From Arenibacter sp. P308M17 (lineage in GTDB: Bacteria; Bacteroidota; Bacteroidia; Flavobacteriales; Flavobacteriaceae), in assembly GCF_003426735.1 (NCBI RefSeq), contig NZ_QVON01000002.1:620001-684000 (forward strand): a stretch of DNA of 64,000 nucleotides. Reading direction: 5' to 3'. This document shows, in pieces, positions 25,022 to 30,182 of the stretch (within the stretch, counting starts at the first letter, position 1; every line of letters begins with the position of its first letter). The position numbers and the translations under genes were made by a program. The notes under the pieces were generated by a model. The model saw only the letters and a program-made list of their open reading frames with translations. It ran no database searches and was not told where the DNA came from.

Positions 25022-26482
25022 ATGTCCAATATTTTTAAGAAAGAAGTGGCTTTTACCAATGTCCCATCCATTAAGGCAAAAACCTTAAGGATAAATTTAA
25101 ATCCGGATATTTACGGTACGTTTTCTGAAATTGGTGCGGGACAAGAGACTTCCGGTCATTTTTTTAAGTCGGGCGGTGCTTCAGGTACCATTGCAAAAGC
25201 AATGAGTGCGTACGATAAGGATTTTAGCGACGCTATTTATGGAATTGAGGAAGACGGCAGGTATGTAACCCAGTCCAGGTTAAAAAAAATGTTGGCCCAC
25301 GAAATGGAAAACATGGACAATAGAATAAGTCGGGACAAACACCCTGATAGATTGTTTTTTTCATATGCCAACACCGTTGCCACAATAGATTTTTCAAAGA
25401 GATATAAAGGCCATGGGTGGATCGGAATCCGATATCAGTTGGATCCCAAACAAAAAGAATTGAACGAAATTATCCTACATATTCGCTTCAAACAAAATGA
25501 AGCGAGGCTGCAACAGGAAACCTTGGGAATTGTCGGGGTCAATCTTATTTACGGCGCATTTTATAAATACGACAAACCTAGAAAATTACTAAAATATCTT
25601 TATGACCATATCGATAAGGACACGGTTGAAATAGATATGGTCAATTTTGCCGGACCAAATTTTGCCGAAGTAGACAATAGGCTAATGAGTTTACAGCTCG
25701 TTAAAAACGATATGACCGATGCCGTAATGTTCGGACCCGATGGTAATAATCTTTTACCGGCGACCATGCTTTACAAAAAAAATATTTTGGCCTTGCGCGG
25801 TAGCTTTAGACCGGTAACCAAGGTGAATATGGATATGTTCAAAAAATCCTATGAGATATTCATCAGGGAACCAAGTGTAGAGGAGGAAAATACCGTTGTC
25901 ATTTTTGAAATTACCCTTTCCAACCTTCGTGCTTCCGGGGAAATTGATGAACAGGATTTTATGGATCGGGCAGAACTATTGTGTTCCTTGGGCCATACGG
26001 TAATGATATCGAAATTTCAGGAGTATTTTAAACTCGTTGAATATTTTAGCAATTATACCAAATCCAAGATCGGCCTTACCATGGGGGTCAACAATTTGGT
26101 CGATATTTTTGATGAAAAATATTACCGCCATTTAAGTGGAGGTATCTTGGAAGCTTTTGGTAAATTGTTCTTTAAAGACCTTAAAGTGTACCTATATCCT
26201 ATGCGCAACGAGGAAACGGGACAAATTATGACAAGTAACACCATCAAAGTACATCCTAGAATGAAAGAATTGTACAAATTCTTCAAGTACAATGGAAAAG
26301 TGATGGACATCATAGATTACGATCCGGAAATACTACATGTTTTCTCCAGGGATGTTCTCAAACAAATAATCAATGGGGAAGAAGGATGGGAATCCGTACT
26401 TCCTGAGGGTATCGCGGAAATAATAAAAAAGAAGGAACTTTTTATCCGTAAACCCTTGGAAGAGGAAAAGGAAAAAGTGTAG
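25022..26482 (+). CDS. Conserved cytosolic protein of unknown function (family often mislabelled TonB-dependent receptor)
   Basis: 486 residues with no signal peptide and no membrane segments. N-terminal blocks IYGTFSEIGAGQETSGHFF and GGASGTIAKAMSAYDKDFSD look highly conserved, as does GIVGVNLIYGAFY. The C-terminal half is rich in Lys/Glu (IIKKKELFIRKPLEEEKEKV). I recall flavobacterial homologues carrying the label TonB-dependent receptor; nothing here (no plug, no barrel, no secretion signal) supports it. It has its own promoter and a bidirectional terminator. Function not assigned. Confidence 0.78.
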   Translation: MSNIFKKEVAFTNVPSIKAKTLRINLNPDIYGTFSEIGAGQETSGHFFKSGGASGTIAKAMSAYDKDFSDAIYGIEEDGRYVTQSRLKKMLAHEMENMDNRISRDKHPDRLFFSYANTVATIDFSKRYKGHGWIGIRYQLDPKQKELNEIILHIRFKQNEARLQQETLGIVGVNLIYGAFYKYDKPRKLLKYLYDHIDKDTVEIDMVNFAGPNFAEVDNRLMSLQLVKNDMTDAVMFGPDGNNLLPATMLYKKNILALRGSFRPVTKVNMDMFKKSYEIFIREPSVEEENTVVIFEITLSNLRASGEIDEQDFMDRAELLCSLGHTVMISKFQEYFKLVEYFSNYTKSKIGLTMGVNNLVDIFDEKYYRHLSGGILEAFGKLFFKDLKVYLYPMRNEETGQIMTSNTIKVHPRMKELYKFFKYNGKVMDIIDYDPEILHVFSRDVLKQIINGEEGWESVLPEGIAEIIKKKELFIRKPLEEEKEKV

Positions 26483-27892: not shown

Positions 27893-28036
27893 CTAGTTTA
27901 AATTATTTTCGAATTGAATATTACTATATTCAACTATTTGCAAAGATTTGGAATAGCCAATCAAAAACTTAATGGTTTCGGGACTAGCTTTGGCAAGTTT
28001 ACACTTGTGTTGATTCTCAGAGTAAATTTTTTCCAT
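27893..28036 (-). CDS. Small protein paired with sigma factor, copy 1 (47 residues)
   Basis: Translated by hand from the gap: ATG at 28034-28036 to TAG at 27893. It begins MEKIYSENQHKCKLAKASPE and contains FLIGYSKSLQIV. It shares the pattern CKL-x4-P-x2-I-x-FL-x2-YSKSL-x-I with the small gene at 29185-29337. Both start about 71 bases after the stop of a sigma-factor gene on the same strand. Repeated conservation of a coding pattern in two paralogous loci is good evidence that it is a real gene. Function unknown; it may bind or modulate its sigma factor, which is inference. Confidence 0.72.
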   Translation of the reverse strand: MEKIYSENQHKCKLAKASPETIKFLIGYSKSLQIVEYSNIQFENNLN

Positions 28037-28108
28037 AGGATTATAGTATTGTTATGTTAAGATAACGCCACTAAAATGGAAATATTGTCCAGTTCGTCCT
28101 ATGACCTA

Positions 28109-28690
28109 TTAATTCGTTAAAACGATATTATGTTTTTCAATTATTTTTCTAAGGTTGATAAGTGCATATCTCATTCTTCCCAAGGCCGTATTGATACTAA
28201 CCCCAGTGTTTTCAGAAATTTCCTTAAAGCTCATGTCCCTGTAAATACGCATTAGGAGCACTTCTTTCTGATCATCCGGTAATTCTTCAATTAACATGGT
28301 AAGATCGGAATCTATCTGGTCCTTGATAATTTGTTTTTCTACATTTAATTTATCATCCCCGATGACGGAAAAAATATTAAAATCATCATTCCCCTCAAAC
28401 ATTGGCATTCTTTTATTTCTTCTAAAGTGGTCAATTACCAGGTTATGGGCTATTCGCATTACCCAAGGCAAAAACTTGCCTTCCTCGCTATAATTTCCCT
28501 TCTTCAAGGTTTTGATCACTTTAATAAAGGTATCCTGAAAAATGTCCTCCGAAACATCCCGGTCCAATACTTTGGAATAAATAAAGCTACTAATACGTTG
28601 GTTGTGCCTGTTGATCAAAACCTCCAAGGCTTTTTCATTACCGTTAATATAATCCTTTACTAATACTGAGTCATCAATTTGCAGTTCCAT
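28109..28690 (-). CDS. RNA polymerase sigma factor, ECF/sigma-70 family, copy 1
   Basis: 193 residues with sigma region 2 (DIFQDTFIKVIKTLKKGNY, FLPWVMRIAHNLVIDHFRR) and region 4 (EELPDDQKEVLLMRIYRDMS, then FKEISENTGVSINTALGRMR). It is ungapped and about 79% identical (about 152 of 193 by hand count) to the copy at 29408-29989. No transmembrane anti-sigma gene is adjacent; instead a 47-residue gene follows. The target promoters are unknown. Confidence 0.9.
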   Translation of the reverse strand: MELQIDDSVLVKDYINGNEKALEVLINRHNQRISSFIYSKVLDRDVSEDIFQDTFIKVIKTLKKGNYSEEGKFLPWVMRIAHNLVIDHFRRNKRMPMFEGNDDFNIFSVIGDDKLNVEKQIIKDQIDSDLTMLIEELPDDQKEVLLMRIYRDMSFKEISENTGVSINTALGRMRYALINLRKIIEKHNIVLTN

Positions 28691-29184
28691 ACAAAATATT
28701 GTTTTTGGTTAAACTAGGGGGCCTCCCCTTTCGGTTCGGACTTTTTGTTGCTTCTTACTTAGTGGTAGACTTAAAAATCTTCCTTAATGATCAGCAACAG
28801 GATAAAAGTATATAAATGGTAAGGTGTGCAAAAAACTATGTTGTAAAACCACCGTTAATTGATGTCAAATGCCGATTTTCTTATTTTACATATAATAATT
28901 GGTCAAAAATGAAGTTGCAATGGCCCAAAGGAATTAAAAGATAAGACTATCTATTTTTACCGGGCTGCCTAGAGAGGGTACCCTAATATATTTATGAATA
29001 TAAAATACACTTTTACATTCACCTTATTTGGCCATACAAAGAAACCCAAGGTTGTAATGCCTAAGGGAGGCGGGCAACAATTCGCAAGGAATTATAGGGT
29101 TTAGGGTAATGTGGTTCAAGGCCACTGCACATGTACTTATACAAGCCATTGCATTTTACTATGCCCGAAAACTATGATGATTTC
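28691..29184. other. 494-base gap between the duplicated sigma units
   Basis: No gene supported on either strand. It contains a GC-rich run GGGGGCCTCCCC (28715-28726), and is otherwise unremarkable. It presumably holds the copy 1 promoter on the minus strand, although no exact TAnnTTTG box was found near 28690. Confidence 0.5.
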
Positions 29185-29337
29185 CTAGTTTAAGCAATGC
29201 TCATTCAATTCATCGTTCCCCTCATCACTTTTAATGATGTAAAGTGATTTGGAGTAATTCAACAAAAAATCTATCTTGGACTTAGGTGTAGACATTAATT
29301 TACAATTGACCTTTTTAGTAACGTTGGATTTCCCCAT
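29185..29337 (-). CDS. Small protein paired with sigma factor, copy 2 (50 residues)
   Basis: Translated by hand: ATG at 29335-29337 to TAG at 29185. It begins MGKSNVTKKVNCKLMSTPKS and contains IDFLLNYSKSLYIIKS, ending EHCLN. It aligns with the 47-residue protein at 27893-28036 over CKL...P...I.FL..YSKSL.I and the C-terminal LN. The start lies 70 bases after the upstream sigma gene, the same spacing as in copy 1. Function unknown. Confidence 0.72.
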   Translation of the reverse strand: MGKSNVTKKVNCKLMSTPKSKIDFLLNYSKSLYIIKSDEGNDELNEHCLN

Positions 29338-29407
29338 AATTATATATTGTTATTGTAAATAACGCAAGTGTTATGAAGAAATTAATTAAAAGCGGATATA
29401 AGGCCTA

Positions 29408-29989
29408 TTAATTCGTTAAAATAATGTTGTTTTTTTCTACAATCTTCCTAAGGTTGATAAGTGCATAGCGCATTCTGCCCAGGGCCGTATTGATGCTGAC
29501 CCCTGTATTCTCAGAAATTTCCTTAAAGCTCATGTCCTTATATAGGCGCATTTCCAAAACTTCCATCTGATCTTTTGGCAATTCTTTGATAAGAATAATC
29601 AGATCTTGGTCTATCTGGTCCTTAATAAGCCTTCTTTCAGCATTTAACTGATCATCACTTATAATGGAGAAAATATTAAATTCATTGTTTCCCTCAAATC
29701 TGGGCATTCGTTTGCTCTTCCTAAAATAATCGATAATTAGATTATGGGAGATGCGCATTACCCATGGCAAAAATTTTCCCTCTTCGTTATAATTGCCCTT
29801 CTTTAGGGTTCTTATTACCTTAATAAAGGTATCTTGAAAAATATCTTCTGTTACTTCCCGGTCCTGTACTTTGGAATAAATAAAACTGCTAAGGCGTTGG
29901 TTGTGTCGGTCTATTAGTTTTTCCAGGGCTCTTTCGTCCCCGTTCATGTAGCTCTTTACCAATACCGAATCTTCTATCAATAGTTCCAT
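29408..29989 (-). CDS. RNA polymerase sigma factor, ECF/sigma-70 family, copy 2
   Basis: 193 residues, same length as and gap-free with copy 1. Region 2 shows DIFQDTFIKVIRTLKKGNY and FLPWVMRISHNLIIDYFRK; region 4 shows FKEISENTGVSINTALGRMR, identical to copy 1, so the two may recognise the same -33 element. Most differences cluster in the region 2-4 linker and in KELPKDQMEVLEMRLYKD. Together with its small downstream gene it forms a tandem duplicate of the copy 1 unit. Confidence 0.9.
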   Translation of the reverse strand: MELLIEDSVLVKSYMNGDERALEKLIDRHNQRLSSFIYSKVQDREVTEDIFQDTFIKVIRTLKKGNYNEEGKFLPWVMRISHNLIIDYFRKSKRMPRFEGNNEFNIFSIISDDQLNAERRLIKDQIDQDLIILIKELPKDQMEVLEMRLYKDMSFKEISENTGVSINTALGRMRYALINLRKIVEKNNIILTN

Positions 29990-30182
29990 ACAAATTACTT
30001 TTTTGAGGCTAAAATGACATACCTGTTATGACTTACAAGTGCATTTGAGCTAGATTTTTAAAAAAGTAATTTTGTTACGTATAGGCTATTTAGGGTATTT
30101 AATGCATCAAATATAAAAAAAAATATATCCAATCAAACTACTTTCCTTCATTGAATAATATTTAGTTATAGGTAAAAGGCTA

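Follow-up and report, generated by a model that had tools for sequence, protein, structure and literature searches.

A conserved small protein behind an ECF sigma factor of Flavobacteriaceae as a candidate single-helix anti-sigma factor, seen from a duplicated locus in Arenibacter

Two genes for ECF sigma factors lie close together in the 64,000-nt stretch of Arenibacter sp. P308M17 DNA analysed here (the window), and each is followed on the same strand by a very short gene. This raises the question of what a protein of 47 or 50 residues does beside its sigma factor, and where it came from. Both sigma/small units are flanked by nth and uvrA, the nth score being just below the curated cut-off. 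The features needed below, in window coordinates and in the direction of transcription, are:

30108 to 30115, minus strand: TATATTTG, which fits the housekeeping -7 box TAnnTTTG, 126 nt upstream of sigma A
29408 to 29989, minus strand: sigma A, ECF sigma factor, upstream copy, 193 aa, with Pfam Sigma70_r2 and r4
29338 to 29407, minus strand: spacer A, 70 nt, with CGTTAT at 29359-29364 and a degenerate -35-like TTAATTT at 29379-29385
29185 to 29337, minus strand: small A, helix-4-like partner of sigma A, 50 aa, dN/dS 0.21
28109 to 28690, minus strand: sigma B, ECF sigma factor, downstream and slower-evolving copy, 193 aa
28037 to 28108, minus strand: spacer B, 72 nt, with an ECF-type promoter-like element (ACAATAT at 28082-28088, 14 nt, CGTTAT at 28062-28067)
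27893 to 28036, minus strand: small B, helix-4-like partner of sigma B, 47 aa, dN/dS 0.14
27941 to 27979, minus strand: small B codons 20-32, predicted helix coevolving with sigma region 2.1 (AF2 helix and coevolution)

The layout agrees with the original prediction, which had described two sigma genes of equal length and about 79% identity, each followed after some 70 bases by a small gene: the two 193-residue proteins are 78.8% identical, the small ATG follows the sigma stop after 72 nt (B) or 70 nt (A), and the sequence motifs named for the small proteins occur in both. Both sigmas score above cut-off with Pfam Sigma70_r2, Sigma70_r4_2 and Sigma70_r4 and with NCBIfam TIGR02937 (sigma70-ECF). 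The nearest named matches of sigma B are from Arenibacter, with 99% identity to the copy of Arenibacter echinorum (L205). As had also been predicted, the region 4 stretch MSFKEISENTGVSINTALGRMRYALINLRKI is identical in the two sigmas, which makes an overlapping promoter specificity of sigma A and sigma B plausible. Small A and small B gave no match to any Pfam or NCBIfam model at E 1, and we found no description of the small protein in the open-access literature. The family profile, which includes small B itself, finds small B in its own genome with E 1.4e-21. An ORF of 486 aa at 25022-26482 of the window is kept beside the cluster across the genus and has no NCBIfam match at E 1e-20.

Both small genes are under purifying selection. 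Calculated from 18 genomes of the genus, dN/dS amounts to 0.14 in small B (18 sequences) and 0.21 in small A (16 sequences), compared to 0.03 and 0.05 for the sigmas; when the small genes are read in either of the other frames, pN/pS is 1.05 to 2.16. These values rule out chance ORFs, and the lack of conservation at the protein level that had been named as evidence against the pair did not appear. Sigma A, sigma B and small B behind sigma B are present in 18/18 genomes. Small A follows sigma A in 16 of them and is absent from L059 and L062, where sigma A is intact. The spacers behind sigma A of these two strains both end in a GC-rich stretch, GGACCGCGGCGGCATCCCCGCAGCGGAGCAAGGGAT, perhaps a repeat element.

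The pair reaches far beyond Arenibacter. In a survey of 149 Flavobacteriaceae genera, with one genome per genus, the sigma was found in 144 (matches with E up to 1e-28) and the small protein in 140 (matches with E up to 0.01), which rules out a private invention of Arenibacter. Among the matches listed, 146 of 150 small genes come next after a sigma, share its strand and begin 50-157 nt behind it, and the genomes of the remaining four do have a sigma match; the small gene without its sigma gene, the second observation named as speaking against a functional pair, was not encountered among them. Also among the matches listed, two sigmas and two small genes occur in exactly the same 18 genomes, 17 of which have the sigmas 1.1-1.5 kb apart on one contig. 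In the exception, G437, the two units lie on different contigs, by an assembly break or a true separation. Two small matches stand against one sigma in G357, G410 and G470, one small match against four sigma matches in G425, and a weak small match against no sigma in G398. G021, G033, G352, G366 and G456 have a sigma without a small match, which we count against an anti-sigma function. In many loci of the class uvrA lies beside the sigma in divergent orientation, nth in fewer. Throughout the family the unit is a pair that mostly occurs once per genome, often near uvrA and nth. The predicted tandem-duplicated unit stands in so far as two units are present in the window, but the pair as such is not tied to the duplication. 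The proposal that the two genes form a conserved pair, with the small protein acting on its sigma, gains support from frame conservation and adjacency.

A tree was built from 84 sigmas. In it the downstream B copies have short branches and cluster with the sigmas of Cellulophaga, Flagellimonas and Croceitalea, which have a single copy each; the A copies from upstream fall into two sets, whose branches are longer. The Arenibacter/Maribacter/Eudoraea group probably inherited the duplication from an ancestor. A single ancient duplication followed by losses of A agrees with these data; a single origin of A would need two changes in the tree. Copy A is drifting within the genus, since small A is missing in L059 and L062 and the A spacers of L051, L054, L058 and L061 lack the CGTT box described below.

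For the origin of the small protein, we sorted the slot behind the sigma in a distant set of 60 further regions, drawn from sigma matches. It held a long ORF starting near the sigma stop in 21 loci, an ORF of 75-83 aa overlapping the sigma end in 10, one of 64-70 aa in 7 and the short form in 3. The remaining 19 were without recognisable partner, a further count against an anti-sigma function. Three soluble (88-90 aa) and three intermediate forms came from the order itself. Across Bacteroidota the slot holds a graded series from mostly membrane-anchored anti-sigma-like proteins through soluble four-helix forms of 75-90 aa and forms of 60-70 aa to the proteins of 47-50 aa. A hydrophobic 19-mer of at least 1.6 is present in 16 of 20 long ORFs tested and in 0/13 soluble, 0/10 intermediate and 0/96 short forms, which rules out an ordinary membrane anti-sigma factor for the latter. 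Two long forms resemble the NCBIfam anti-sigma model NF052375: L157 with 7.1e-11 and 42.5 bits, below the cut-off of 100, and L166 with 2e-5.

The neighbouring classes of this series recognise each other. We searched 2190 ORFs from these loci with a profile HMM of each class and counted the members scoring above the first background ORF. The short profile retrieved 10/10 intermediate and 6/13 soluble forms, the intermediate profile 85/89 short and 9/13 soluble forms, and the soluble profile 20/22 long, 9/10 intermediate and 38/89 short forms; the long profile, with L170 counted as a member, retrieved 13/13 soluble, 1/10 intermediate and no short forms. Long and short forms therefore had no direct profile match to each other in this test. 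L038 combines the N-terminal domain with the second half of the short form, and the short profile matches L038 with E 2e-9. Since class profiles reach the neighbouring classes and L038 holds both parts, the short protein is placed at the end of a graded series; it keeps the start (MxK.YS, MxKTFT) and helix 4, and the three-helix bundle is gone. Good hhalign scores between short and long forms were set aside: among column-shuffled controls a few outliers went as low as 1e-30, and 2 of 100 were as good as the real short-soluble score, for which reason the ORF-background test was used instead. L132 and L134 were rejected as independent losers of the N-terminal domain, their short ORFs being internal starts of ORFs of 77-79 aa. 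Searched against PDB sequences, the long-form profile hit only RskA among the anti-sigmas, with E 1.3, in nine non-significant matches.

Three further ORFs behind sigmas were noted by eye. That of L168 (G287), of 567 aa, repeats a motif like LxxLDxLPxxxPsxxxlxxixxxA several times before a membrane segment, as if helix 3-4 units had multiplied. The one in L164 (G188), of 268 aa, shows two anti-sigma-like domains in a row. In L171 (G076) a short helix-4-like stretch is directly followed by a membrane-like segment with no visible bundle, possibly an independent reduction.

Structure models fit into this series. The model of the soluble form L134 (30 aligned rows, pLDDT 88.3) has helices at 7-14, 20-32, 34-52 and 59-71, and the motif kept in the short form is the fourth of them. 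Searched with Foldseek against the PDB, it gave 19 matches, 13 of which are class I anti-sigma factors of six systems (ChrR, MucA, RsiW, RskA, RseA, RslA), each match being weak (E 2.4-9.8). A joined-chain AF2 model of sigma B and small B reached pLDDT 71 and pTM 0.46, a score at which the docking is unreadable; its PDB matches are ECF sigmas such as AlgU and RpoE. In this model small B consists of one helix plus a low-confidence tail, the helix covering residues 237-249 of the chain (small B residues 19-31) with pLDDT of about 79-86. The four-helix domain of class I factors is consequently found in the soluble relatives and not in small A and small B (one helix predicted, for small B), and the contact of helix 1 with sigma 4 is missing from both, as no helix 1 remains. 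These comparisons place the small protein within an anti-sigma-like lineage, at its reduced end. The original prediction had called it unlike usual anti-sigma genes: this is correct for the lack of a membrane helix, but not for its descent, as indicated by the intermediates, the NF052375 match and the fold.

Which part of the sigma is contacted was approached by coevolution. Mean-field coupling scores from 264 unique sigma-small pairs (effective number 182) were summed along all 361 parallel and antiparallel diagonals for small residues 17-36. The antiparallel diagonal with sigma i + small j = 51 came first of 361 in nine of nine settings with z 5.9-7.2, in a test chosen after the top coupling pairs had been seen; 20 permuted pairings gave diagonal z values of at most 4.8 (range 3.2-4.8). 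Diagonal 51 was first in two disjoint subsets as well, with z 5.4 for the 180 pairs outside the duplicated clade and z 3.9 for the 84 pairs inside, the latter value falling within the permuted full-set range. Eight of 12 random halves also placed it first, the other four at ranks 2, 3, 4 and 10. The leading sigma-small pairs are I26-L25, A21-K30, S34-A17 and I15-E36.

This register resembles that of class I factors. In PMC7406223, contacts common to four crystal structures place helix 4 and the linker antiparallel to region 2.1, with near-constant residue sums of 79 to 85 in RpoE/RseA numbering (pair 26-56 included). The window sigma aligns with AlgU at equal numbering over the region 2.1 stretch. 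With an offset of 31 the published residues 55, 56, 59, 60 and 63 fall on small B F24, L25, Y28, S29 and L32, all in low-entropy columns; the mean entropy at offset 34 (0.55) is lower than at offset 31 (0.68). No preference for offset 31 emerges from the contact pairs exactly as published; with a tolerance of one residue it is first of 32 with z 2.0. The contact of helix 4 with region 2.1/2.2 is thus seen in the coevolution register, not in a structure. Taken together, these covariation data suggest that the small protein very probably binds its sigma and that its helix probably lies antiparallel on region 2.1, as in class I helix 4.

The spacer between the two genes carries the consensus ACAATAA, 14-15 nt, CGTT. 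Of 105 spacers, including 34 of the genus, 98 contain a CGTT that leaves space for the upstream box (10.2 on average in shuffles), and 48 match this box in at least 6 of 7 letters (shuffles at most 1). As the box had been read off these spacers, it was tested on 85 others: 84 contain CGTT, its commonest place being 35 nt ahead of the small ATG, and the full element is present in 77, compared to at most 2 in shuffles. Upstream of the sigma the element was found in 0/70 regions, while TAnnTTTG is present there in 43/70 (13.9 in shuffles); for window sigma B no TAnnTTTG lies within 250 nt upstream. PMC9723704 describes TAnnTTTG as the -7 box of housekeeping promoters and ascribes a CGT box at -10 in Flavobacterium psychrophilum to an ECF sigma. 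The SM6 promoters of that species are close to the spacer element, a comparison that leaves out the -35 part, and which sigma reads SM6 is unsettled. The small gene is probably made under ECF control, and the neighbouring sigma itself would be the one that reads the element. The strict pattern matches the genome twice, spacer B included, and the reversed control does so four times; a looser promoter-like pattern showed no clear excess in 37 genomes, so we do not claim a regulon. In the order relatives L045 and L046, ORFs of 64 and 47 aa behind the sigma are unlike the family; both loci have a perfect ACAATAA-15-CGTT element.

We consider it fairly likely that each unit consists of an ECF sigma factor and a free-standing helix-4 micro anti-sigma factor, probably ECF-controlled as a negative feedback. 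In this model a class I-type anti-sigma domain would have lost helices 1-3 and any membrane part, the short N-terminus and helix 4 being kept as a free-standing peptide. The helix would pack antiparallel on the region 2.1 helix of the sigma, a surface for the beta-prime clamp helices, so that the small protein and RNA polymerase should be competitors for the sigma. Transcription of the sigma gene would start from a housekeeping promoter and that of the small gene from its own ECF-type promoter-like element in the spacer; an active sigma would thereby raise the level of its inhibitor. The analysis shows that the genes are real and adjacent, that they descend through graded intermediates, and that there is a helix, a coevolving interface and a conserved promoter-like element; we infer the inhibition, the identity of the sigma that reads the element and the feedback. 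Helices 1-3 of class I factors touch sigma 4 and add to inhibition; their absence counts against the micro anti-sigma reading, as does the intact sigma A without small A in two of 18 genomes. For the more specific proposal of a stepwise reduction in Flavobacteriales to a soluble single-helix peptide, which would sequester the ECF sigma via region 2.1 alone and be made from a sigma-dependent promoter behind the sigma gene, we see about even chances.

Binding to the same surface may also help the sigma, with the small protein as a chaperone, stabiliser or loading factor, for instance a remnant that became a positive cofactor once the helices clamping sigma 4 were lost. The binding surface and the coevolution are compatible with either sign, and sigma A survives without the small gene in two genomes; the same survival, however, would be unexpected if the helper were essential. 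An origin in an anti-sigma-like lineage also speaks against it, and since the helix 4 site on the sigma is that of the beta-prime clamp helices, according to PMC7406223, binding should block core binding. We regard a helper as unlikely. Less probable still is a role in delivering the sigma to a protease, as an adaptor or tag whose signal would be the conserved C-terminal ..LN. The last residue is Asn in 43/43 aligned forms and in all of the 264 paired sequences that fill the last column (entropy 0), beyond the helix, but the small-ORF filters partly favoured a terminal N, so that this invariance is overstated, and no degradation signal was recognised.

That short proteins replaced the anti-sigma lineage in the same slot by convergence, binding the sigma in the way of CnrY, is very improbable. 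The missing direct profile match between long and short forms would agree with it, and unrelated helices can sequester an ECF sigma, as described for CnrY (PMC4598750); yet the same genomic place holds intermediates between the two forms, L038 joins both parts in one protein, and the coevolution register is that of class I helix 4. A decaying remnant without function, as copy A with its loss of promoter box or gene in part of the genus might suggest, is hardly credible given purifying selection on both copies, a small gene in 140 of 149 genera and coevolution with the sigma.

The micro anti-sigma reading can be set beside known systems. Like the class I anti-sigma factors (ASDI: RseA, MucA, ChrR, RsiW, RskA, RslA), the small protein is encoded behind an ECF sigma, as in the 146 of 150 listed cases, its soluble relatives model as a four-helix domain with mostly ASDI matches in the PDB, and its helix would take the helix 4 register on region 2.1; it differs by having one predicted helix in 47-50 aa, without helices 1-3 and without a membrane part. 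By membership it is an incomplete class I factor, yet it would work like the helix 4 of one. CnrY-type factors and Acinetobacter AabA likewise have a very small cytoplasmic sigma-binding part and no class I bundle, as outlined in PMC4598750 and PMC12153292, but AabA is described in the latter as a protein of 107 aa with a membrane helix, which by this description sets the small proteins apart. CnrY-type factors wrap sigma 2 and sigma 4 with two helices; for small B the joined-chain model gives one helix and a tail of low confidence. EcfO/Reo of Bacteroides and Phocaeicola is also a pair of an ECF sigma and an adjacent anti-sigma in Bacteroidota; Reo, in contrast to a soluble protein of 47-50 aa, is described as spanning from the cytoplasm to the cell surface (PMC13114119).

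According to PMC7406223, only 6% of the ECF sigmas of Bacteroidetes have a class I anti-sigma neighbour, and their regulation was left open. An ECF sigma that our survey found in 144 of 149 Flavobacteriaceae genera appears to have an anti-sigma-derived partner that Pfam and NCBIfam models miss at E 1. The graded series indicates which part of the anti-sigma domain persists longest, and its predictions, residue pairs and a promoter, are open to direct tests. It further points to a search for single-helix partners behind other orphan ECF genes. If our reading is true, micro anti-sigma factors below the reach of annotation models would partly explain why Bacteroidota ECF sigmas seem to be without an anti-sigma.
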